Part shown: piece by piece, positions 8,853-26,931 of the stretch
Position numbering within the stretch: position 1 is the stretch's first letter
How the letters are laid out: every line of letters starts with the position of its first letter
Origin: Actinokineospora sp. NBRC 105648
GTDB taxonomy: Bacteria > Actinomycetota > Actinomycetes > Mycobacteriales > Pseudonocardiaceae
Reading direction: 5' to 3'
Assembly (NCBI RefSeq): GCF_030269645.1
Contig: NZ_BSTR01000018.1
Location: forward strand, 62,001-126,000
DNA: 64,000 nucleotides
Notes under the pieces: model-generated
The model's input: only the letters and a program-made list of their open reading frames with translations
The model's database searches: none
What the model was told of the DNA's origin: nothing
Translations under genes and position numbers: made by a program

Positions 8853-10242
<1,390 letters not shown>

Positions 10243-10467
10243 TCGCGGGCCACCAAGGGCTTGACCCACGTTCGGACACACACTTGACCATCCCCACCAT
10301 AGTAGCCACCACCGGATCAGCGCTGGAGGCGAGCCACCGCGGGGACGGTCAGGTCGTTCCAAGCACGGGAGCATACGGCACCGCCGCGCCCGCCTCGAAA
10401 TCGATCCCGCCGCGAGCTGCTGACCTGCCGGTTCGCCGCGACCGCGGTCACGGCGAACCGGCGCCGG

Positions 10468-11565
10468 TCAGCCCTGCAGCGAGCGCAGCGCCGCGGCCAG
10501 GCGGGAGACGCCCTCTTCGATCTGGTCGACGCGCACCCCCGAGTAGGCCAGGCGCAGGGTCGACTCCCCGCCCTCGAGCAGGAAGTCGGTGCCCTTGACG
10601 AAGGTGACCCCGAGCGCCTCGGCGGCCGGGAGCAGCTTGGCCACGTCGACGCCCTCGCCGAGGTCGACCCACATGAAGTAGCCGCCCTCGGGGGCGGTGA
10701 ACCTCGCCTGCGGCAGGTGCCGGGACAGCGCGTCGCAGAGGGTCTTGACCCGCTCGGCGAGCGCGGCGTTCACCACGGCCACCGACCGGTCGACGCCGCC
10801 GTCGGCGGTGAACCGGTGCACGATCGCCTGGGCGAGCATGTTCGGCGAGATGTAGGTGTTGGTCGCGCGCACGCGCACCCGGCCCACCAGCTCGGCCGAG
10901 CCGACGATGTAGCCGACCCGGACACCGGGGGCCACCGTCTTGGAGAACGAGCTGGCGTAGACCACGCGGCCGCGGCCCTCGTCGAGCTCGAGCATGGTCG
11001 GCAGCGGCTCGCCGGCGAAGCGGATCTTGACGTACGGGTCGTCCTCGAAGATGACGAAGTCGTACTGCCCGGCCAGCTCCAGCAAGCGCTTGCGCTTGGC
11101 CAGGCTCAGCGTGTAGCCGGCCGGGTTCTGGAAGTTCGGGATGATGTGGGCGAAGGTCGGGCGCAGGCCGCCCTCGAGCAGGCCCGCGAGCTCCTCGACA
11201 TCGATCCCGTCGACGTCCAGGGACACCGGGCGCACGTCGGCGTCGCGGTCGCGCAGGCCCAGCAGGGTGCGGTCGTAGGTGGGGCGCTCCACGACGACCG
11301 GCTGCCCCGCGACGACGAGCTCGTCGAAGAGGAACGCGTCGGCCTGCATGGAGCCGTTGGTGACCAGCACCTGGTCCTCGGCGACGCCGTGCCACTCGGC
11401 GAGCAGCTTGCGCAGCGGGGGGTAGCCGATCGCGGTGCCGTAACCGAGGGCACCGCCGGGGTCTTGCGTGAGTGCGGCGTCCGCGGCGGCCTTGAGGCCT
11501 GCCACATCGATGATGTCGAGGGAGGGGGCGCCGCGGGCGAAAGAGATGAGTTCAGATGCCGTCAC
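10468..11565 (-). CDS. PLP-dependent aminotransferase (class I/II)
   Basis: A 365-aa fold-type I aminotransferase. The PLP lysine is K209 in SSFSKTVAPGVRVGYIVGS, with NFQNPAGYTLS and FEDDPYVKIRF also in place. The pattern matches the 2-aminoadipate/LysN-like and MocR-aminotransferase-domain group, but there is no DNA-binding domain. Substrate cannot be assigned; an aromatic or branched amino acid or 2-aminoadipate is possible. The start is a GTG at 11565. It lies downstream of hadB after a terminator-like hairpin and is probably a separate unit. Confidence 0.85.
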   Translation of the reverse strand: MTASELISFARGAPSLDIIDVAGLKAAADAALTQDPGGALGYGTAIGYPPLRKLLAEWHGVAEDQVLVTNGSMQADAFLFDELVVAGQPVVVERPTYDRTLLGLRDRDADVRPVSLDVDGIDVEELAGLLEGGLRPTFAHIIPNFQNPAGYTLSLAKRKRLLELAGQYDFVIFEDDPYVKIRFAGEPLPTMLELDEGRGRVVYASSFSKTVAPGVRVGYIVGSAELVGRVRVRATNTYISPNMLAQAIVHRFTADGGVDRSVAVVNAALAERVKTLCDALSRHLPQARFTAPEGGYFMWVDLGEGVDVAKLLPAAEALGVTFVKGTDFLLEGGESTLRLAYSGVRVDQIEEGVSRLAAALRSLQG

Positions 11566-11583
11566 GCGTGAAATCTAGATGAA

Positions 11584-11611
11584 CCGCCCCCGGCGGATGA
11601 GCCGGGGGCGG
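11584..11611 (-). terminator. Terminator after hadB
   Basis: A perfect 11-bp GC stem (11584-11594 with 11601-11611) and a 6-nt loop lie 5 bp beyond the hadB stop. A moderately T-rich sequence (TTCATCTAGATTT) follows on the minus strand. Confidence 0.7.
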
Positions 11612-11616
11612 AGTGC

Positions 11617-12021
11617 TCAAGCGGGCCGGACGATCGCGATCGCCTTGCCCAGGACCGAGCGGCCGTCGAACTTGGCGTCCAGGTTGACCCGGACGGTGCC
11701 GTCGTCGTTGACCGCTCCGATCTTGCCGGTCAGCTCCAGCAGCGCGCCGGTGTCGTCGTTGGGGACCACCACGGGGCGGGTGAAGCGGGCCGAGTAGGTG
11801 ACCAGCTCGCCCAGCCCCCACGCGGTGAGCACCCGGCCCGCCAGGGCCATGGTGAGCATGCCGTGCGCGATCACGTCGGGCAGCCCGACGCCGCGGGCGA
11901 ACGCCTCGTTCCAGTGGATCGGGTTGAAGTCGAGCGCGGCCCCGGCGTAGCGCACGAGGTCGGCCCGGGTGATGTGGGTGGACAGCGGCGGCAGCACGTC
12001 GCCGACGGTGAGCTCGCTCAT
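11617..12021 (-). CDS. hadB: (3R)-hydroxyacyl-ACP dehydratase subunit HadB
   Basis: A 134-aa single hotdog-fold MaoC-type protein. The hydratase motif is D31-F-N-P-I-H36, followed by the helix GVGLPDVIAHGMLTMALAGR. With HadA it forms the dehydratase heterodimer of FAS-II; in mycobacteria this serves mycolic acid elongation, and in other actinomycetes fatty acid or envelope lipid elongation. The start overlaps the hadA stop by 4 nt. The rpmG-hadA-hadB order is conserved in actinobacteria. Confidence 0.93.
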   Translation of the reverse strand: MSELTVGDVLPPLSTHITRADLVRYAGAALDFNPIHWNEAFARGVGLPDVIAHGMLTMALAGRVLTAWGLGELVTYSARFTRPVVVPNDDTGALLELTGKIGAVNDDGTVRVNLDAKFDGRSVLGKAIAIVRPA

Positions 12022-12476
12022 TCGCCCGCCTCCTCGGCGTCGCGCACGACCAACTGCGCCCGCGCGGTGACCCGCGGTTCGCCGCCCTCGGTCGCGATGT
12101 CGGCCCGCAGGGTGATGAAGTCGTTGCCCGCCCGGCTCATGATCGCCTCGACGGTGCTGGTGACCAGCAGCCGGTCCCCGGCCACCACCGGCGAGTGGTA
12201 GGCGAAGCTCTGGTCGCCGTGCACCATCCGGCTGTAGTCCAGCCCGAGGTCCGGGTCGCTGACGATCCGGTTGATCGCCGCCAGGTTCACGATCGTGGTG
12301 AACGTCGGCGGCGCCACCACGTCGGTGTACCCGAGGGCCCGGGCGGCCTCGGCGTCGACGTACTCCGGCCGCGGGTCGCCGATCGCCTCCGCGAACTCGC
12401 GGATCTTGGCCCGCCCCACCTCGTACACCGACTCCGGCGGGTACGTCCGCCCCACAAACGACTGATCAAGCGCCAC
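12018..12476 (-). CDS. hadA: (3R)-hydroxyacyl-ACP dehydratase subunit HadA
   Basis: A 152-aa MaoC-N (FAS1-like) dehydratase, the non-catalytic or substrate-holding partner of HadB. Typical stretches are YEVGRAKIREFAEAIGDP, then VVAPPTFTTIV and HGDQSFAYHSPVVAGD. It lacks the D-x-N-P-x-H signature, as HadA normally does. The start is a GTG at 12476. It is coupled to hadB by a 4-nt overlap and lies downstream of rpmG. Confidence 0.92.
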   Translation of the reverse strand: MALDQSFVGRTYPPESVYEVGRAKIREFAEAIGDPRPEYVDAEAARALGYTDVVAPPTFTTIVNLAAINRIVSDPDLGLDYSRMVHGDQSFAYHSPVVAGDRLLVTSTVEAIMSRAGNDFITLRADIATEGGEPRVTARAQLVVRDAEEAGE

Positions 12477-12497
12477 GGACGAACCCTACCCAAGCCA

Positions 12498-12539
12498 CGA
12501 CGAGGGCCGGCCCACCCAGGGGTGGACCGGCCCTCGTCG
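12498..12539 (-). terminator. Hairpin between rpmG and hadA
   Basis: A 19-bp stem (12498-12516 with 12521-12539), with one non-Watson-Crick position and a CAGG loop, lies 21 bp beyond the rpmG stop. No U-tract is present, so it may only partly separate rpmG from hadAB. Confidence 0.65.
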
Positions 12540-12560
12540 AACTCGTGGGGAACTCGCAGG

Positions 12561-12725
12561 TCAGCGAGTTTCCTTGTGCAGGTTGTGCGTCTTGCAGTTC
12601 GGGCAGAACTTCTTCATCTCCAGGCGATCCGGGTCGTTGCGCCGGTTCTTCTTGGTGATGTAGTTCCGGTGCTTGCAGACCTCACACGCCAGCGTGATCT
12701 TCGGCCGCACGTCAGTAGAGGCCAC
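12561..12725 (-). CDS. rpmG: 50S ribosomal protein L33
   Basis: A 54-aa protein of normal length. Two CxxC pairs are visible ([14 protein letters not shown] and [14 protein letters not shown]), so this is the zinc-binding form rather than the zinc-free paralogue induced by zinc starvation. The GTG at 12725 with GGAAGG 8 nt upstream is the start; the reading frame continues further upstream only by chance. Confidence 0.97.
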
Positions 12726-12794
12726 GACAACACCCTTCCAAACTAGTGCCCGATCCCCGCCCGAACACCAGAGTCCCGGGAAGGCCGCCAGGCC

Positions 12795-12855
12795 GACCCC
12801 GGCGGGGGTCCGGGGGCTAGCCCCCGGCTGGGGGTCTGGGGGCTCGGCCCCCAGA
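12795..12855. repeat. GC-rich palindromic repeat cluster
   Basis: Two adjoining hairpins: a perfect 18-bp palindrome CCGGGGGCTAGCCCCCGG (12810-12827), and a stem with arms TCTGGGGG and CCCCCAGA (12835-12842 with 12848-12855). Strings of this kind recur between genes in many actinomycete genomes as REP-like elements. It lies between tRNA-Met and rpmG and may also terminate tRNA read-through. Confidence 0.6.
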
Positions 12856-12910
12856 ACAATGCCGAAGCGATCCAGTCGATGCTCTCCATCGACACAGGTC
12901 GCCCATCGCG

Positions 12911-12983
12911 TAGCGGTGGCCGGACTTGAACCGGCGACACAGCGATTATGAGCCGCTTGCTCTACCGACTGAGCTACACCGCT
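12911..12983 (-). tRNA. tRNA-Met (CAT anticodon)
   Basis: A 73-nt cloverleaf. The acceptor AGCGGTG pairs with CACCGCT, the anticodon loop is CTCATAA, the T-loop is GGTTCAAGTCC and the discriminator is A. The A-T first pair and elongator-type D-stem indicate elongator Met rather than initiator; a tRNA-Ile(CAT) cannot be excluded by eye. No CCA tail is encoded. Confidence 0.93.
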
Positions 12984-13045
12984 TTGACATGGATCAAGCC
13001 GCGCCACACCGCCGATGTTCCCGGTGTACCGCGGCCGAACCGTCG

Positions 13046-13118
13046 AGCCCCTTTACGGAATCGAACCGTAGACCTTCTCCTTACCATGGAGACGCTCTGC
13101 CGACTGAGCTAAAGGGGC
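13046..13118 (-). tRNA. tRNA-Thr (GGT anticodon)
   Basis: A 73-nt cloverleaf. The acceptor GCCCCTT pairs with AAGGGGC, the anticodon stem TCTCC/GGAGA encloses ATGGTAA (anticodon GGT), the T-loop is GGTTCGATTCC and the discriminator is T. It is the first of the tRNA-Thr/tRNA-Met/rpmG series on the minus strand. Confidence 0.96.
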
Positions 13119-13183
13119 CTTGTCCCTGGGGACGGGCGTAACTTTACACATACCCCCGCAGAGCTCCAAAACGGGGGGTGGGC

Positions 13184-15913
13184 CTAGGAGAGCAAGGTCA
13201 GCACGGTCTCGTCGCGCAGGCCCCTGGCCTGCGTGGTCCTGGCCTGCAGCCACGCTTCCAGCCTGCTCTCGGAGAGCGGGCGGGAGATCAAGTAGCCCTG
13301 CGCGACGTCGCAACCCATGCCCGCCAACTGGTCCCGGGCGGCGTCGTCCTCGACACCCTCGGCCACCACGGTCAGACCGAGTGAGTGACCGAGCTCCACG
13401 ATCGAGCGGACCACCGCCAGGTCGCCGAGATCGGTGCCCATGCCGAGCACGAAGCTCTTGTCGATCTTGACCTCGTCGACCGGCAGCTGGCGCAGGTAGG
13501 CCAGCGAGGAGTAGCCGGTGCCGAAGTCGTCCACGGCCAGCACCACGCCGAGGGCGTGCAGCCTGCGCAGCACCGGCAGGGCGCGCTGCGGGTCGGCCAT
13601 CACGCCCGACTCGGTCAGCTCCAGGGTGAGCAGCTCCGGCGGGACACCGTGCAGTTCCAGGGCCTCGGCGACGCGGTCGGGGAAGGCCGGGTCATCGAGG
13701 CTGCGCACGGACAGGTTGACCGCCGCGGCGATCCGCAGGCCGCGGTCCATCCACTTGCGCACCCGGATCAGCGACTGGTCCATCACGAACCCGGTGAGCG
13801 CGTCGACCAGGCCCGCCGCCTCGACCGCGGGCACGAACTCGTCCGGGTCGAGCCTGCCGAACTCGGGGTGGCGCCAGCGGACCAGCGCCTCCACGCCGAG
13901 CACCTGGCGGCTCGGCAGCGCGACCTTGGGCTGGTAGTGGACCTTGACCTGGCCGCTCTCCAGCGCCGAGCGGAACTGGGTGACCAGCTGGAAGCGGCGC
14001 AGGAAGATCTGGCCCATGGTGGGCAGGTAGGCGCGCACGGTGTCGCCGCCGGAGCGGGCCGCGCGCAGCGCCACGTCGGCGCGCTGGAGCAGGGCGTCGA
14101 CGTCGAGCTCGAGCGCCGCGCCGTCGCCCTCGCCCGAGCGCGGGGTGGAGTAGCCGACGACGGAGTTCGCCTCGACGGTGAGCCGGTCCACCGGGTACGG
14201 CGCGGCCAGCCCGGCGCGCAGCCGCTCGGCGATGGCCTGCGCCTCGTCGGGGGTGGTCTCGGTGAGCAGGACGGCGAACTGGCCGCCCTCGAGCCGGGCC
14301 AGCGGCACGTCCGGGCCGAGCGCGTCGCGCAGCCTGCGGCCCGCGGCGACGACCATCCGGTCGCTCCACGCGTAGCCGAGGGCGTCGCTGACGGTGGAGA
14401 GCACGTCGAGGTCGATGCGCAGCACGACCGACTCGTGGTGCTGGCGCAGGGGTTCGCCCGCGATGCGACGGAAGCCCGGGCGGTTGAGCAGGCCGGTCAG
14501 CGGGTCGTGGTAGGCGTCGTGGCGCAGGGTGGCGAGCAGCCTGCGGTTGTCCATCGCGGTGGCCAGGTGGCTGGCCATGGTGCCGATGAGCCGGTTGTCC
14601 GCCTGGCCGAAACCGCGCCAGCGGGAGAGCTTGTCGTGCGCCTCGACCACGCCGAGCAGGTGGCTCGCGCTGCGCAGCGGCACGACCAGGGCCTCGTCGG
14701 CGCCGCGGCGCAGCAGCGCGTGGCGGACCTCGGGGACCGAGTCGCCGCGGCGGAAGTGCCGCACGTGCGAGCCGGGCAGCCGCAGCAGCGCGTCGGCCCG
14801 GGAACCGGTGGCCTCGACCTGGTGGACGTCGGCGGGCAGCTCGTCGCCGGAGACCACGGTGTGCAGCGGCAGCTGCGGGTCGAAGCGCAGCCGCAGCACG
14901 ATCCGGGCGGCGCCGAGCTGGTCCTTGATCCGGTCGGCGATGACCTGCCACTCGTCGTTGTCGGTCACCTCGGCCAGCTCGGCCGGGTCGGCCAGGCCGA
15001 GGGACGGCTTGGCGGCGGCCTGGTGCCCGGAGCGGGCGACGACCAGGCTGACCTCGGAGAGCGCCTCGAGGTCGCGCTGCTCGCGGAGCAGCCCGGAGTA
15101 GGCGATGTAGAGCGCGGAGAGACCGCCGAGAGCGAGTACCAGCAGGGGCCAGCCAGCCTCGGCGTGCACCACGACCTGGTAGCCCACCACGCCCATCGAG
15201 GCGTTGACCAGGCCGAGGACCAGGGTGCGCAGGACCAGGCGGACGGCGGCGCCCAGGCGCATCCGGCGGCCGAGGATGCGGACGCAGACCAGCGCCAGCA
15301 GGGTGCTGGAGAGCGGCGCGGCCAGCGCGCCGGCGAGCACACCGGCCCAGGCGGGCCCGTAGCCCAGCGAGTTGACCCAGGCGGCCACGGCGAAGGCGCA
15401 GGTGATCTCGAAGACCATGGCGCCGGCGTTGTAGAGGATGCGGTCCTGGACCTTGCGGACCAGCAGGGTGCCGACGCCCGCGAGCAGGTGGGCGGCGAGC
15501 ACGACCTCGAACGGGGCGACGAACAGACCGATGACGAGCGGGATCTCGGAGAAGGAGATCGTCCAGGACACGCCGGTGCGGACGTCGACGTTGATCGCGA
15601 GCTGCTCGGCGAGCAGGAACCCGAGCGCCAGCAGCACCCCGATCCAGATGACCCCCGGGCGCTCCTGCGGCGCCAGCCGCCAGGAGACCAGCGCGGCGGC
15701 GGTGATCGCCGAGACCAGGATCAAGATGGAGAAGGCGAGGAAGCGGCGGTTGGGCGCGGGGTCCTCGACGAGCCACTGCTGGCCCTCGGGCTGCCCCTGC
15801 GCCGCTCGGCCCTCGGCCGGAACGCCTTGGGCCGGTTGGCCGCCGACCGGTCGGCCCACCGCGGTCGGCGCACCTGCCGGACGCTGATCGGCCGCGCCAG
15901 GGTGGTCCGGCAT
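13184..15913 (-). CDS. Membrane GGDEF-EAL protein (c-di-GMP phosphodiesterase with degenerate GGDEF)
   Basis: A 909-aa protein. Order: Pro/Gly-rich N-terminus; about eight transmembrane helices (57-275); a GAF-like region (about 320-455); a GGDEF domain (about 465-630) whose signature is EGGQF (542-546); and an EAL domain (about 650-890). The EAL residues look intact: E675-A-L, NLS (733-735), E767 in LTESG, DDFGTG (795-800), K816 in VKIDKS, EGVE (852-855). This predicts c-di-GMP hydrolysis at the membrane and no diguanylate cyclase activity; the altered GGDEF may bind GTP and regulate. It stands alone between the tRNA genes and phzF. Confidence 0.9.
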   Translation of the reverse strand: MPDHPGAADQRPAGAPTAVGRPVGGQPAQGVPAEGRAAQGQPEGQQWLVEDPAPNRRFLAFSILILVSAITAAALVSWRLAPQERPGVIWIGVLLALGFLLAEQLAINVDVRTGVSWTISFSEIPLVIGLFVAPFEVVLAAHLLAGVGTLLVRKVQDRILYNAGAMVFEITCAFAVAAWVNSLGYGPAWAGVLAGALAAPLSSTLLALVCVRILGRRMRLGAAVRLVLRTLVLGLVNASMGVVGYQVVVHAEAGWPLLVLALGGLSALYIAYSGLLREQRDLEALSEVSLVVARSGHQAAAKPSLGLADPAELAEVTDNDEWQVIADRIKDQLGAARIVLRLRFDPQLPLHTVVSGDELPADVHQVEATGSRADALLRLPGSHVRHFRRGDSVPEVRHALLRRGADEALVVPLRSASHLLGVVEAHDKLSRWRGFGQADNRLIGTMASHLATAMDNRRLLATLRHDAYHDPLTGLLNRPGFRRIAGEPLRQHHESVVLRIDLDVLSTVSDALGYAWSDRMVVAAGRRLRDALGPDVPLARLEGGQFAVLLTETTPDEAQAIAERLRAGLAAPYPVDRLTVEANSVVGYSTPRSGEGDGAALELDVDALLQRADVALRAARSGGDTVRAYLPTMGQIFLRRFQLVTQFRSALESGQVKVHYQPKVALPSRQVLGVEALVRWRHPEFGRLDPDEFVPAVEAAGLVDALTGFVMDQSLIRVRKWMDRGLRIAAAVNLSVRSLDDPAFPDRVAEALELHGVPPELLTLELTESGVMADPQRALPVLRRLHALGVVLAVDDFGTGYSSLAYLRQLPVDEVKIDKSFVLGMGTDLGDLAVVRSIVELGHSLGLTVVAEGVEDDAARDQLAGMGCDVAQGYLISRPLSESRLEAWLQARTTQARGLRDETVLTLLS

Positions 15914-22060: not shown

Positions 22061-22097
22061 GGGACCGGCCGCACTGTGCAGGGGTGCGGCCGGTCCC
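22061..22097 (-). terminator. Strong hairpin downstream of the TetR gene
   Basis: A perfect 14-bp GC stem (22061-22074 with 22084-22097) and a 9-nt loop lie about 74 bp past the stop of the TetR gene at 22171. A U-tract is weak. Confidence 0.6.
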
Positions 22098-22170
22098 ACC
22101 ACCTTTCGTCGATTCACTGTGATCATTGTGAAAAGCCGCCCAGGGCCGTGGAAATCCCGACCGGAACGGG

Positions 22171-22794
22171 TCAGGCGTCCTCGAACCGGCTGCCCCACAT
22201 GCCCTCCGGGCTGAACCCGGTCGCGTCCGCGCCCGCCAGCGCGGGCAGCAGCATCCGCCACATCTCGGTCAGGCTGCGCGGGAGGTCGACGCCGTCGCGG
22301 CGGTGCCACCAGACCAGCTCCAGGCCGACGGCGACCGCGGTAACCAGGGTGGCCTGCAGCTCGACCGCGGGCGGGTCGGCCAGCGGCGAGTCCGCGGCCC
22401 GCAGGAAGTGGTCGACCGCGGCGCACCAGTGCTGCAGGAACGGGTCGCGGCGGTCACCGGCGCGGGCCAACCGCAGGCTGGCCCGCACGGTTGGCTCGCT
22501 CTGCAGCCAGCCGACCAGCGCGTGCGTCAGGTCGATCACCGACTGCAGCGCGGGCCGCTCGGCGGTGGCCAGCTTGCCGACCAGCTCGGCCACCAGGTCG
22601 CAGGCCTCGTTCTGCACGGCCCGGCAGATCTCGTCCTTGGAGGCGAAGTGGAAGTACAGCGCGCCCTTGGTGACCCCGCCCGCGCGGCAGATCCGGTCCA
22701 GGCTGGCACCGGCGTAGCCGTGCCGGGCGAACTCCTCGGCCGCGGCCTCCACCAGGTGCGATCGGGTGAGCTCGGAACGCGCCTGCCTCGGCAT
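22171..22794 (-). CDS. ScbR/ArpA-type TetR regulator (gamma-butyrolactone receptor or pseudo-receptor)
   Basis: A 207-aa TetR-family protein. The HTH (about 5-50) is RSHLVEAAAEEFARHGYAGASLDRICRAGGVTKGALYFHFASKDEI, given here as its overlapping parts; the GVTKGALYFHF helix is the hallmark of butyrolactone receptors. The ligand domain has the usual length. ATG 22794 starts the conserved MPRQARSELTR. An ARE-like operator lies about 80 bp upstream. With the neighbouring receptor it forms a receptor/pseudo-receptor pair as in scbR/scbR2 loci; which one binds the hormone is unknown. Confidence 0.88.
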   Translation of the reverse strand: MPRQARSELTRSHLVEAAAEEFARHGYAGASLDRICRAGGVTKGALYFHFASKDEICRAVQNEACDLVAELVGKLATAERPALQSVIDLTHALVGWLQSEPTVRASLRLARAGDRRDPFLQHWCAAVDHFLRAADSPLADPPAVELQATLVTAVAVGLELVWWHRRDGVDLPRSLTEMWRMLLPALAGADATGFSPEGMWGSRFEDA

Positions 22795-22873
22795 CAGCCC
22801 ACCCGCCGGATCGATAACGAGCCCAAGAAGTCCATCGCGGTCGCTCCCCCTGTCGGCACGTCGGGAGCACAGT

Positions 22874-22896
22874 ACAAAACCGACCGCGCGGTTTGT
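22874..22896. promoter_or_regulatory. ARE-like operator upstream of the 22171-22794 TetR gene
   Basis: An imperfect palindrome with left half ACAAAACCG and right half CGGTTTGT. This matches the autoregulatory-element pattern bound by butyrolactone receptors (ACAAACCG with CGGTTTGT). It lies between the two TetR genes, just beyond the stop of the second. Confidence 0.65.
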
Positions 22897-22906
22897 CAAG
22901 GCGGTC

Positions 22907-23536
22907 TCAGGCCGAGATGGCGGCCGCCCCTGACTCCACAATGGACTTGAAGCGGGCGCTGCGCCGGGGTGGGACCAGGCCGGGGAGCACGATCTGCCAC
23001 ATGTCGCGCATCCGGTCGGCCAGGTCCGCCCGGCCCGCGAGCACCTGCGAGGTGGTCTGCACCCCGGTGAACGAGGCGACCATGAACGCCGCGACCGCGT
23101 CCGGCTCGAGCCCCTCGCGCAGGTCGCCGTCCTGCTGGGCGGCGACCAGGCAGTCCCGGCACAGCGCGATCCACCAGCGGTAGGCGTCCGGCGCGGGCGA
23201 GGTGAAGGTGCCCTGCTCGATCACCAGCCGGATGCCCGCGCGCACCCGCACGTCCTCGCGCAGGCTCTCCGCCATCCGGAAGCTGAGCTCGATGAGCGTG
23301 CGCAGCCCGAGCTCGGCGCCCTGCGCGGTGTCCCAGACCCCGAACTGCTCGTCGATCAGCGCCTGGGCGAGCTCCTCCTTGGAGGCGAAGTGGAAGTACA
23401 GCGCGCCCTTGGTGACCCCGGCCTTGACCAGGATGTCCGATAGGCTGGCGGCCGCGAATCCGTGCTCGTCGAACACCGCCGCGGCCGCGTCCAGGATGAC
23501 CGCTCTGGTCCGCTCTGCCCGTTCTTGGCGTGGCAC
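22907..23536 (-). CDS. ScbR/ArpA-type TetR regulator, divergent from afsA
   Basis: A 209-aa gamma-butyrolactone receptor homologue. HTH stretches are RAVILDAAAAVFDEHGFAAAS and DILVKAGVTKGALYFHFASK; the ligand domain includes LRTLIELSFRMAE and AYRWWIALCRDCL. A tryptophan in that region is typical of A-factor-type ligand binding. GTG 23536 is chosen because GGAGGG lies 8 nt upstream and the product starts VPRQERAERTR like its relatives; the 13-residue extension upstream is not supported. It faces afsA across a 178-bp gap containing an ARE-like site. Confidence 0.9.
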   Translation of the reverse strand: MPRQERAERTRAVILDAAAAVFDEHGFAAASLSDILVKAGVTKGALYFHFASKEELAQALIDEQFGVWDTAQGAELGLRTLIELSFRMAESLREDVRVRAGIRLVIEQGTFTSPAPDAYRWWIALCRDCLVAAQQDGDLREGLEPDAVAAFMVASFTGVQTTSQVLAGRADLADRMRDMWQIVLPGLVPPRRSARFKSIVESGAAAISA

Positions 23537-23640
23537 AGGCCAATCCCTCCGAAAGTCCCTAACTGGGTTACCCACCGGTGGTGCAAGATGCGCGCGAAGC
23601 GCAACGCAGAGCGTAGCCCAAACTTCTGGCGAATCTTGAA

Positions 23641-23662
23641 AGAAAACCGTCCGGTAGGTATT
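23641..23662. promoter_or_regulatory. ARE-like operator in the tetR-afsA intergenic region
   Basis: The core AAAACCGTCCGGTAGGTATT (23643-23662) fits the AfsA/ScbR autoregulatory-element pattern: an AACCG half-site, a central CCGG and a GGTATT half. It lies 53 bp upstream of the afsA start and about 105 bp from the divergent receptor start, where a receptor could repress both. Confidence 0.7.
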
Positions 23663-23714
23663 AGCTTATTGGTGTCCCGCACGCCCAGGTGGGGCCAGGC
23701 ACGAGGGGGAACCG

Positions 23715-24665
23715 ATGGCGTCCATGATGGCGGACGAGAGAAACGGCGCCGCGGGGCCATTACCCCACGCGGGGCCGTCCATGTACGAACAGACGGTCCC
23801 GCGGCACCTCGTCCACCGTTCGGCGGTGTCGGAGGTGTTCCTGACCGGGTTCCAGCAGGTCGGCGTCGACACCTTCCACGTCGCGGCGCAGTGGCCGCGG
23901 GCCCACACCTTCTTCGGCCCGCGCAACCCGACCACGCACGACCCGCTGCTGTTCGTCGAGACCATCCGCCAGGCCGGGCTGCTGGTGGCCCACCGCGGCC
24001 TGGCCGTGCCCCTCGACCACCGGTTCCTCTCCCACCACAAGACCTACGACATCGACCCCGAGGGGCTGGTCGTGGGCAGGCGCCCGACCGACGTGCTGCT
24101 GGTGGTGACCGTGCCCGCGGGCCCGCCCGCGCAGGCCCGGCGGATGATGCGGTTCAGCTGCCACCGCGACGGCGAACTGGTCGCGACCGCGGCGGTGCAG
24201 TGGAGCTGCCTGAGCGACGGGTCCTACCGCCGGGTGCGCGGCGACCGGATCACCTGCGGCCAGACCCCGACCGAGCCCGCGGCGGGCCCGGTGCCGCCGC
24301 GGTCGGTGGGCCGCGTGCGCGCCGAGGACGTCGTGCTCACCCCGACGCCGGTCGACCGGGCCTGGTCGCTGCGGGTGGACACCCGGCACCCGGTGATGTT
24401 CGACCACCCCACCGACCACGTGCCGGGCATGGTGGCGGTGGAGGCGGCGCGGCAGGCGGCGATGCTCACCATGGGCACCCCCGACGCGCTGCCGGTGGCC
24501 GCGCGCTTCGGGTTCCACCGGTTCATCGAGTACGACGAGCCGTGCGTGGTGGCGGCCGATCCGCCGGTGGTCGTCGACCACGACCGCACGGAGGTCGCGG
24601 TGCGGCTCACCCAGGGCCGCGACGTCGCGGTGGACGGTGTCCTTACGCTTGTCAGGCATGACTGA
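23715..24665 (+). CDS. AfsA/ScbA-type gamma-butyrolactone synthase
   Basis: A 316-aa protein with two A-factor-biosynthesis hotdog repeats (about 30-150 and 195-310). Typical residues are TVPRHLVHRSAVSEVFLTGF, then HTFFGPRNPTTHDPLLFVETIRQAG in overlapping parts, and MFDHPTDHVPGMVAVEAARQAA. AfsA condenses a beta-ketoacyl-ACP with dihydroxyacetone phosphate, the key step to butyrolactone hormones. ATG 23715 has GAGGGGGA 4 nt upstream. Codon 16 is a rare TTA (23760-23762), which would be avoided only if translation began at ATG 23781. The stop overlaps the next gene by 8 nt. Confidence 0.93.
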   Translation: MASMMADERNGAAGPLPHAGPSMYEQTVPRHLVHRSAVSEVFLTGFQQVGVDTFHVAAQWPRAHTFFGPRNPTTHDPLLFVETIRQAGLLVAHRGLAVPLDHRFLSHHKTYDIDPEGLVVGRRPTDVLLVVTVPAGPPAQARRMMRFSCHRDGELVATAAVQWSCLSDGSYRRVRGDRITCGQTPTEPAAGPVPPRSVGRVRAEDVVLTPTPVDRAWSLRVDTRHPVMFDHPTDHVPGMVAVEAARQAAMLTMGTPDALPVAARFGFHRFIEYDEPCVVAADPPVVVDHDRTEVAVRLTQGRDVAVDGVLTLVRHD

Positions 24666-25650
24666 GTCTGCGCTGTTGAGTTGCCCCACCGACCTCGGGC
24701 AGGTCCTGGTGACCGGTGGCACCGGCTTCATCGGCTCGGCGGTGGTGCGCGCGCTGCTGGGGGCCGGGGTGAGTCCCGCCAAGACCAGGGTGCTCTCCCG
24801 GCGCGGCCTGCCGGAGTGGATGAGCGCGGTCGGCGTCCGGTCGGTGCGCGCCGACCTGCCCGATCCGTCCGGTGTGGACAGTGCGGTGGCCGGGGTGGAC
24901 ACGGTGCTGCACCTGGCCGCACACGTCGGCTCGGACCCGCGGCGCTGCGACGCGGTGAACATCGGCGGCACCCGGGCGATCCTGAGCGCGGCGCGCCGGG
25001 CCGGGGTGCGCCGGACGGTCCAGCTGAGCACGTCCTCGGTGTACGGCGAGTCCGTCCACAGAGGACACCGCGAGGTGGAGATCACGCCCGCGCCCGCCTC
25101 GGCCACCAGCCGCTCCCGGCTGGCCGCCGAGGAGGTGGCGCTCGGCGAGGGGTCGATCGTGCTGCGCCCGCACCTGGTCTACGGCGCGGGCGACCGGTGG
25201 TTCGTCCCCACCCTGGCCCGGGTGCTGCGCGCCGTCCCGACCTGGGTCGACGGCGGCACCGCGCTGGCCTCGCTGGTGGCGGTGGACGACCTGGGCGCGG
25301 CCATCGCGCGGCTGGCCGACCCGGCGGTGGACCTCGAGCCGGGCGCGATCCTGCACGTGAACCACCCGGTGCCGGTGAGCATGCGGTGGCTGATCAGCTC
25401 GCTGGCGGCGTGGACCGGCTTCCCGCTGCCGTCGGGCTCGCTGCCCCGCGCCGAGCACCGGGAGCGCACGCGGCGGGCGCTGCCGTGGCTGACCGACCAC
25501 CAGTTCTCGCTCTTCGCCGACGACCACTACTACGACAGCACCCGCATCTGGACCGCGACCGGCGTCGACCCCGGCCCCGGGCCCGGGGTGCGGCTGGCGG
25601 CGGCCGCGGGCTGGTACCGGGAGACCCTCGCGGGCGCCAACTCGAACTGA
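24658..25650 (+). CDS. NAD-dependent epimerase/dehydratase (butyrolactone reductase candidate)
   Basis: A 330-aa extended short-chain dehydrogenase. The Rossmann motif is VTGGTGFIGSAVVRALL, then STSSVYGES and downstream RPHLVYGAGDRWFVPTLARV. The catalytic Tyr of the YxxxK motif is replaced by a R-S-R-L-A-A context (ATSRSRLAAEEVAL), so chemistry may differ from classic epimerases. Its overlap with afsA implies joint translation; a reductase acting on the butyrolactone intermediate (as proposed for JadW2/BarS1-like enzymes) is the most likely role. Confidence 0.8.
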   Translation: MTESALLSCPTDLGQVLVTGGTGFIGSAVVRALLGAGVSPAKTRVLSRRGLPEWMSAVGVRSVRADLPDPSGVDSAVAGVDTVLHLAAHVGSDPRRCDAVNIGGTRAILSAARRAGVRRTVQLSTSSVYGESVHRGHREVEITPAPASATSRSRLAAEEVALGEGSIVLRPHLVYGAGDRWFVPTLARVLRAVPTWVDGGTALASLVAVDDLGAAIARLADPAVDLEPGAILHVNHPVPVSMRWLISSLAAWTGFPLPSGSLPRAEHRERTRRALPWLTDHQFSLFADDHYYDSTRIWTATGVDPGPGPGVRLAAAAGWYRETLAGANSN

Positions 25651-25659
25651 GGGTCATAA

Positions 25660-25671
25660 AGTTCTAGAACT
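25660..25671. promoter_or_regulatory. GntR operator copy 1, upstream of trpB
   Basis: A perfect 12-bp palindrome AGTTCTAGAACT. It has the same central CTAG and half-site layout as operators of HutC/DasR-type GntR regulators (for example GGTCTAGACC). It lies upstream of the predicted -35 of the trpB promoter. Confidence 0.75.
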
Positions 25672-25679
25672 CTTGGCGG

Positions 25680-25707
25680 TTGTGAGCTACCGTCTGCGTC
25701 ATAGAGT
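25680..25707 (+). promoter_or_regulatory. Predicted promoter of trpB-trpA-gntR
   Basis: A TTGTGA (25680-25685) and TAGAGT (25702-25707) pair is separated by 16 nt. Operator copy 2 covers the end of the -10 box, so repressor binding would block the polymerase. Confidence 0.5.
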
Positions 25708-25716
25708 TCTAGAACT
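25705..25716. promoter_or_regulatory. GntR operator copy 2, upstream of trpB
   Basis: This is an exact second copy of AGTTCTAGAACT, 45 bp centre-to-centre from the first. It overlaps the predicted -10 and ends 15 bp before the trpB GTG. Two identical sites 45 bp apart suggest cooperative binding by one dimeric repressor. Confidence 0.75.
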
Positions 25717-25731
25717 TTAAGGGAGGCTCCC

Positions 25732-26931
25732 GTGCGTGACGCACCCGCGGTGGATCGCATCCGCGCTGGTCAGATGGCCGAGCCCAGCACGGCGGGCCGC
25801 TTCGGCGGGTTCGGCGGCCGGTTCGTGCCCGAGTCGCTGGTACCCGCGTGCCAGGAGGTCGAGCGGGCCTTCCGCGAGGCGTGGGCCGACCCCCGCTTCC
25901 GCGGCCAGCTGGACCGGCTGCTCGCCGGCTACGCGGGCAGGCCCACGGCGCTGACCCCGGCGTGGCGGCTCTCGGGTGACCTCGGGATCACCCTGCTGCT
26001 CAAGCGCGAGGACCTGGCGCACACCGGGTCCCACAAGATCAACAACGTCCTCGGCCAGGCGCTGCTGGCCCGGCGGATGGGCAAGACCCGGCTGATCGCC
26101 GAGACCGGCGCGGGCCAGCACGGTGTGGCCACCGCGACCGCCGCCGCGCTGCTGGGGATGCGCGCCACGGTGTTCATGGGCCAGCGGGACATCGAGCGGC
26201 AGGCGTTGAACGTGTTCCGGATGGAGATGCTGGGCGCCGAGGTCGTGCCGGTCACCTCCGGCAGCCGCACGCTCAAGGACTCGTGCAACGAGGCCATGCG
26301 GCACTGGGTGGGCGCCGTCGAGGACTCCTACTACTGCATCGGCTCGGTCATGGGACCGCACCCGTACCCGTGGATGGTCCGCGAGTTCCAGCGGGTCATC
26401 GGCGACGAGGCCCGCACGCAATGCGCGACGGAACTCCCCGCTGCCGTCCCGGACTACGTGGTCGCCTGCGTCGGCGGCGGGTCGAACGCGGCGGGCACGT
26501 TCGCCGGGTTCGTCGACACCTCGGCCCGGCTGATCGGCGTCGAGGCGGCGGGCGGTGCCGCGATGACCGATGGCGCCGTGGGTGTCCTGCACGGCTTCCG
26601 GTCCCGGGTGCTGCAGGACGACCAGGGGCAGATCGCCGAGGCGCACTCCGTCGCCGCCGGACTCGACTACCCGGGGATCGGGCCGGAGCACGCACATCTG
26701 GGTGAACTCGGTCGAGCGACATACGTGACCGTCGGCGACGACGAGGTGGTCGCCGCCGTGCACCGGCTGGCCCGCAGCGAGGGCATCCTCTGCGCGCTGG
26801 AGTCGGCCCACGCCGTCGCCTGGGTCATCCGCGCCGCCGAGTCGGGAGAGCTGCCACCGGGGGCGACCGTGCTGCTCACGCTGTCCGGCCGGGGCGACAA
26901 GGACATGAGCGCACTGATGGAGCTGGCATGA
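25732..26931 (+). CDS. trpB: Tryptophan synthase beta chain
   Basis: A 399-aa TrpB. The PLP lysine is K102 in HTGSHKINN, with ETGAGQHGVATATAAALLGM, the phosphate-binding GGGSNAAGTF, and LHGFRSRVLQDDQGQ all conserved. It condenses indole and serine to tryptophan. GTG 25732 has GGGAGG 5 nt upstream. It starts a trpB-trpA-gntR operon without trpC/trpD/trpF, so it is probably a secondary trpBA set under dedicated control. The codon and residue conservation argue for a working enzyme. Confidence 0.95.
   Translation: MRDAPAVDRIRAGQMAEPSTAGRFGGFGGRFVPESLVPACQEVERAFREAWADPRFRGQLDRLLAGYAGRPTALTPAWRLSGDLGITLLLKREDLAHTGSHKINNVLGQALLARRMGKTRLIAETGAGQHGVATATAAALLGMRATVFMGQRDIERQALNVFRMEMLGAEVVPVTSGSRTLKDSCNEAMRHWVGAVEDSYYCIGSVMGPHPYPWMVREFQRVIGDEARTQCATELPAAVPDYVVACVGGGSNAAGTFAGFVDTSARLIGVEAAGGAAMTDGAVGVLHGFRSRVLQDDQGQIAEAHSVAAGLDYPGIGPEHAHLGELGRATYVTVGDDEVVAAVHRLARSEGILCALESAHAVAWVIRAAESGELPPGATVLLTLSGRGDKDMSALMELA

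Follow-up and report, generated by a model that had tools for sequence, protein, structure and literature searches.

The 64,000-nt stretch of the soil actinomycete Actinokineospora sp. NBRC 105648 analyzed here (the window; C18:62001-126000, on the 132 kb contig C18 of an 8.43 Mb genome in 149 contigs) contains a compact gamma-butyrolactone (GBL) signalling island with two regulator genes, a hormone synthase gene, a reductase gene, and two palindromes resembling the autoregulatory element (ARE). The SARP activator gene that usually adjoins such modules was not found in it, and a 13-codon open reading frame (ORF) stands where one may have been lost. The features of the island are as follows.

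22171-22794, minus strand: tetR1, ScbR-family TetR gene, pseudo-receptor-like paralogue of the R1 clade, whose members neighbour SARP genes in relatives
22794-22835, minus strand: 13-codon ORF MDFLGSLSIRRVG, preceded by GGGGGAG and containing a TTA codon; candidate SARP deletion scar
22873-22898: ARE1 (18-mer at 22877-22894), within a promoter-like spacer reading towards tetR1
22907-23536, minus strand: tetR2, ScbR-family TetR gene, receptor-like paralogue, divergent from afsA
23640-23665: ARE2 (18-mer at 23644-23661), in the tetR2/afsA divergent region, within a spacer reading towards afsA
23715-24665, plus strand: afsA/scbA-type butyrolactone synthase gene, product with two hotdog halves
24658-25650, plus strand: NAD-dependent epimerase/short-chain dehydrogenase/reductase (SDR) gene, probable hormone-tailoring enzyme

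The products of tetR1 and tetR2 scored 170 and 219 bits against the ScbR family (NCBIfam NF041196; cut-off 150), and that of afsA scored 314 bits against the ScbA/BarX family (NF041195; cut-off 200), in agreement with an earlier note on this DNA that had named two ScbR-type TetR genes and an AfsA-type synthase. The tetR2 start was picked by family, with an alternative GTG at 23575, and the profile scan used 22907-23575. Pfam AfsA matched the synthase in two stretches, and E82 and E243 in its two ExxRQ motifs, which we take to be the catalytic glutamates, were invariant in an alignment of four sequences. The overlapping reductase of the earlier note is an epimerase-type SDR (Pfam Epimerase, 96 bits), and its gene overlaps afsA by 8 nt; an SDR is labelled near afsA in 25 of 29 islands of the same bacterial family. 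By family membership, AfsA and the SDR would make a butyrolactone-type signal. The nearest solved relatives of tetR2 are AvaR1 and a GBL receptor in the PDB, at about 130 bits each. A ligand-pocket tryptophan is conserved in ScbR-type receptors, according to one account (PMC7480387); W123 of tetR1 and W122 of tetR2 fall in a column that holds tryptophan in 30/30 R2 and 23/30 R1 rows, window rows included. The isoelectric points are 5.8 for tetR1 and 5.2 for tetR2 (family medians 6.1 for R1 and 5.8 for R2), and the rule that receptors are acidic to neutral and pseudo-receptors basic has exceptions, as the same source states (PMC7480387). Judged by its clade (30 R1 rows, support 100/100) and its linkage to SARP genes in relatives, tetR1 is pseudo-receptor-like.

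ARE1 and ARE2 are both exact matches to one degenerate pattern, which was built around these two sites. With up to two mismatches, the pattern gave five strand matches in the window against 0.36 expected, four of which are ARE1 and ARE2 on both strands, so the two palindromes described earlier are real. Across the whole genome, a similar pattern with up to one mismatch gave 23 strand matches, against three for the reversed pattern. ARE1 lies within a 17-nt spacer between TTGACA (22899-22894) and TGTACT (22876-22871), directed towards tetR1. Around ARE2, hexamers fitted by eye, TTGAAA (from 23636) and TATTAG (from 23659), again with a 17-nt spacer, are directed towards afsA. The proposal of one ARE per TetR promoter fits ARE1 and tetR1, whereas ARE2 sits in the gap from which tetR2 and afsA diverge, with its hexamers pointing to afsA. 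TetR2, and probably TetR1, would bind both sites.

The usual composition of such modules was derived from relatives. An AfsA search at E 1e-30 matched 70 of 390 family genomes, the own genome counted, and 45 loci were taken with 19-20 kb around afsA, plus five more with shorter stretches. Three of the 45 (L074, L147, L148) were left out, as the simple gene caller gave no afsA there; 12 had at most one labelled TetR of the ScbR kind near afsA, and the other 30 had tetR1- and tetR2-labelled proteins both near afsA. A SARP gene lies near tetR1 in 29 of these 30 loci, on the same strand as tetR1 in 11 (operon type) and divergent from it in 18; in L153, the one locus without it, the tetR1 label is weak and located beyond the SDR gene. 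SARP genes are also present in 5/5 of the further loci, giving 34 of 35 with both TetR types near afsA; the SARP of L159 was detected by tblastn only, the gene caller having missed it. In 29/29 family islands, the 400 nt upstream of the SARP gene include an ARE, and the 90 ARE places found in the 29 islands with up to one mismatch include none within the four genes by the test used. A SARP activator is the usual output neighbouring such modules.

The family islands compared (L071-L073, L119-L144, and L158-L162, with named loci among L163-L178 and L185) come from genera such as Herbihabitans, Amycolatopsis, Saccharothrix, Lentzea, and Actinokineospora and consist of SARP, tetR1, tetR2, afsA, and SDR genes. 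They resemble the window island in tetR2 (50-71% in 29 islands; a row at 100% is a self-comparison), in afsA (40-52%), in related SDR and tetR1 genes, and in AREs of the same type. They differ from it in two respects: the family islands hold a SARP gene, which was not found in the window island, and tetR1 and tetR2 lie on opposite strands in 29/29 of them but on the same strand in the window.

A tblastn search with the 29 island SARPs found no island SARP on contig C18 (best E 0.02). The own genome as a whole gave 22 matches to one island SARP, the best at 47%. Twelve of these loci were taken for a SARP tree; because two represented the same gene, the tree contains 11 distinct genes and leaves 11 matches unplaced. 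Of the former, 0/11 placed genes fell within the operon-type or divergent-type island groups. Relocation of the SARP gene elsewhere as the output was rejected on these two results. The island itself has no SARP gene under an ARE, the arrangement that marks a GBL receptor-SARP cascade, and the 42-nt ORF offers the sole candidate for a trace of one. The genome encodes a second AfsA-domain protein at L041 (G000:C12:112500-132499; 9435-10268, 66 bits to Pfam AfsA), with a SARP-like gene downstream on the other strand.

Read on the minus strand, the 112-nt gap from tetR2 to tetR1 comprises TTGACA, the 17-nt spacer with ARE1, TGTACT, GGGGGAG, and the 13-codon ORF, whose TGA stop overlaps the tetR1 ATG (TGATG). 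The peptide MDFLGSLSIRRVG resembles a SARP N-terminus joined to a SARP C-terminus: operon SARPs start with MD(I/V)xxLGPL, and three of 11 (L073, L128, L138) end in VG before the stop. Its score for the combined termini, 32, was reached by 0/300 shuffles, and among 1288 further mini-ORFs taken from 308 kb of the strain's own DNA a single one reached it. TTA is rare in the called window genes (7/18454 codons); the leader's TTA encodes the leucine aligned with codon 9, where five of the 11 operon SARPs also use TTA. ARE1 shares 24-25 of 26 bases with the SARP-operon AREs of L071, L138, L142, L143, and L144, compared with 23/26 for the best ARE of the other classes, which belongs to a divergent-type SARP. 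The class means are 20.1 for SARP-operon, 19.1 for divergent SARP, 17.7 for divergent tetR1, and 16.7 for tetR2/afsA AREs. Hexamers that flank the ARE and match at no fewer than 8 of 12 positions occur in 11/11 SARP-operon promoters versus 9/29 afsA promoters (best over several offsets), and those nearest to the ARE1 hexamers belong to L142-L144. The 13-codon ORF is the likely, if unproven, scar of a SARP deletion.

The island is best explained as a known type of GBL module with receptor, pseudo-receptor, AfsA, and SARP, from which the SARP was lost by internal deletion, a reading to which we assign a probability of roughly 60%. The hormone would be made by AfsA and the SDR. TetR2, and probably TetR1, would repress tetR1, afsA-SDR, and perhaps tetR2 through the AREs in the promoter spacers and would come off these sites in response to the signal. 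Relatives of the operon type would express SARP-tetR1 from an ARE1-like promoter. In the window, the SARP-tetR1 unit appears to have been inverted relative to tetR2 and to have lost all but about a dozen SARP codons; as a consequence, the old SARP promoter, ribosome site, and start may now drive tetR1 through the 13-codon leader. The outcome would be a self-regulating signal loop without a local activator, in which the ARE1 promoter yields only TetR1. These regulatory steps are transferred from family knowledge, chiefly from the S. filipinensis system (PMC7480387). It is conceivable, though rather doubtful, that the leader has itself turned regulatory: as a hormone-inducible ORF with a TTA codon, it would make tetR1 synthesis depend on both ARE1 release and a rare-leucine tRNA of the bldA type, and a negative feedback loop under developmental gating would take the place of the activator output.

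The S. filipinensis GBL cluster, sfbR-sfbR2-sfbA-sfb5 with the SARP gene sfb7, is among the closest known systems (PMC7480387). It shares with the window a receptor, a pseudo-receptor, an AfsA-type synthase, an epimerase-type reductase, and AREs in one cluster, and its pseudo-receptor gene adjoins a small SARP gene (PMC7480387). The sfb cluster has SARP genes, a P450, and a StrR-type regulator (PMC7480387), whereas neither a SARP nor a P450 was found in the window island. A literature search whose coverage mostly excluded subscription journals returned no publication title on a SARP-deleted GBL island.

Several observations weigh against a deletion. At the DNA level, the leader region resembles SARP starts only modestly: 2/62 gene starts score as high, 55/2000 random stretches equal its score, and so do 66/6000 stretches centred on a start codon, including 10/168 of those with a ribosome-site-like stretch. 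The alignment of the leader to SARP also requires a two-codon gap, and a stricter promoter scan of 22700-25800 gave no sigma-70-like site. The SARP gene may sit in a gap of the 149-contig assembly, the gene caller overlooks genes, as with the SARP of L159, and one own SARP, on C70, is the neighbour of the operon group in the SARP tree, with a long branch (89/80). SARP-less islands with a similar layout exist as well. An earlier single-sequence AfsA scan of the named genomes had found no relative; the search repeated with an alignment gave 80 loci, out of 387 relatives, and many Streptomyces and Kitasatospora loci among the 80 have TetRs and afsA without a labelled SARP. A tblastn search of the retrieved flanks was negative for SARP genes in 16/16 chosen loci of this kind (13 with two TetR labels, three with a single label); like the window, these islands (L186, L187, L191, L201, and others) carry TetRs beside afsA. 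Three of the SARP-less loci, L186, L191, and L225, share the window's order, with tetR1 and tetR2 both reading away from afsA, and the R1 proteins of L191 and L225 fall on the family's side of the tree.

The island might never have had a SARP in this lineage; it would then be comparable to the SARP-less islands seen in Streptomyces and Kitasatospora, and the 13-codon ORF would have arisen by chance. The SARP-free flanks, the shared gene order, and the weak DNA-level similarity of the leader all speak for this origin, but we consider it unlikely. In the R1 tree, which leaves out one short row (L188), the window tetR1 groups with L071 and four divergent-type rows of the SARP-bearing family islands (89/85, below star level). 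A separate clade (100/99) unites 16 Streptomyces rows without the window tetR1, whereas L191, L225, and L226 lie outside that clade, on the family's side; 0/16 of its rows have a SARP labelled next to R1, and six have one elsewhere in the locus. The best matches of ARE1 to SARP-operon AREs and the peptide and TTA evidence of the leader also argue against a SARP-less origin. A loss of the SARP within the lineage of the window accounts for the data more simply, though it is not the sole reading.

A distant or unknown target, as the earlier note had suggested, is possible in view of four perfect AREs outside the island (C3, C8, C27, C28), which also count against a module deprived of output, in that an output may exist elsewhere; the usual target, however, is the neighbouring SARP that is missing here. 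The GBL system could be active but rewired, with TetR1 and TetR2 binding AREs elsewhere and controlling genes directly. We regard this as a tentative possibility that deserves more weight than a SARP-less origin, and it is compatible with SARP loss. With up to one mismatch, the own genome has 19 strand matches outside the island, compared with 5-14 in ten control genomes of the genus without a tetR2 match (G003, 12; G004, 10; G005, 11; G007, 5; G008, 8; G010, 7; G011, 6; G013, 11; G014, 13; G015, 14). G006, also without a tetR2 match and with 13 strand matches, was left out of the control for its own ARE-flanked TetR gene. No perfect ARE is among the matches listed for seven island-less genomes (the ten controls minus G003, G010, and G011). 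At C2:297293, C3:259465, C4:176244, and C55:26618, a one-mismatch ARE is followed by a called gene at a distance of about 100 nt or less. A weight matrix puts sites on C28, C27, and C69 and at C2:6979 above ARE2, and a sequence-only model with 150 candidates per genome puts two outside sites above it (ARE1, 20.0 bits; ARE2, 15.2; outside sites, 15.8 and 15.7). In G001, a further genus member with a tetR2 relative, a perfect ARE precedes a polyketide synthase (PKS) gene with no SARP nearby. Against rewiring, three of the perfect outside AREs lie inside called genes and the fourth between convergent gene ends, and the best model scores in three island-less genomes are 14.8, 14.4, and 12.6 bits, against an outside maximum of 15.8; the pattern, moreover, was designed around the window's own sites. 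The 16 outside places with up to one mismatch comprise seven inside called genes, seven intergenic, and two without a called gene within 600 nt, and two further places from the sequence-only model (C7, C69) are intergenic. The genome search proposed in the earlier note thus yields further AREs, none of the perfect ones in a clear promoter, and the distant targets are possible but none is convincing.

Some of these outside sites have features of their own. Two perfect AREs, L039:10036 (C27:81735) and L040:9822 (C28:84686), touch genes for GGDEF-like (diguanylate cyclase) proteins, which is maybe a coincidence; one site falls within its gene, where GGDEF was assigned by eye, and the other directly follows its gene, which Pfam assigned. 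The site at L014:1501-1518 (C4:176244) is an AT-rich ARE-like palindrome with one mismatch; it lies between divergent genes, 6 nt upstream of a 259-residue ORF, and could be the operator of another regulator.

Pfam found no PKS or non-ribosomal peptide synthetase among all 14 called C18 genes longer than 480 residues, smaller genes being mostly unscanned, and within this scope the earlier statement that no antibiotic cluster adjoins the island holds. A trpB-trpA-gntR cassette follows the SDR gene, with 81 nt from the SDR stop to the trpB start; its trpB is one of three copies above cut-off in the genome. Two AGTTCTAGAACT palindromes at 25653-25719 precede the cassette and are likely operators of the GntR protein for this third trpBA copy. 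The palindrome pair occurs nowhere else in the genome (16-base pattern, up to two mismatches), and G014, which lacks an afsA match, also carries trpB-trpA-gntR; trpBA-gntR thus appears to be a cassette separate from the island. Its expression as an island output, by read-through from the ARE2-controlled afsA promoter, would agree with the shared direction, the short gap, and the lack of a terminator-like site in a scan; given the cassette's own paired palindromes, its presence in G014, and, in the family loci assessed, the lack of any trp label up to five genes away from afsA, it is highly improbable. As an output of the island, trpBA was set aside on account of its own operators and its separate nature.

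Other states of the circuit occur within the genus. A tetR2 relative (E 1e-25) was found in five of 16 genus genomes, the own included, with full islands in G002 and G012. In G009, L276 (G009:C14:157500-176500) holds tetR2, SARP, and tetR1 genes and three AREs, and the genome has no afsA match; it is possibly a listener without a signal of its own. In G001, L264 (G001:C9:28000-47000) holds the tetR2 relative and the perfect ARE, at 9709, before the type I PKS gene at 9835-14373 (1512 residues); with no afsA match in the genome and no SARP in the 19 kb around, G001 is apparently a receiver wired straight to a biosynthetic gene. In G006, which also lacks an afsA match, L265 (G006:C1:2209500-2228500) has a divergent TetR gene at 9307-9993 flanked by two perfect ARE-like sites and beside two genes that are SDR-like by eye. 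Two 'butyrolactone' regions are given for A. bangkokensis in one report (PMC6273641).

The genus could serve as a natural series of hormone circuits that were dismantled or rewired. The customary interpretation of GBL systems is that they switch antibiotic activators. With a module that retains the genes for making and sensing its signal but has lost the activator, one could ask whether such systems persist for the sake of self-control, of neighbours, or of other targets.

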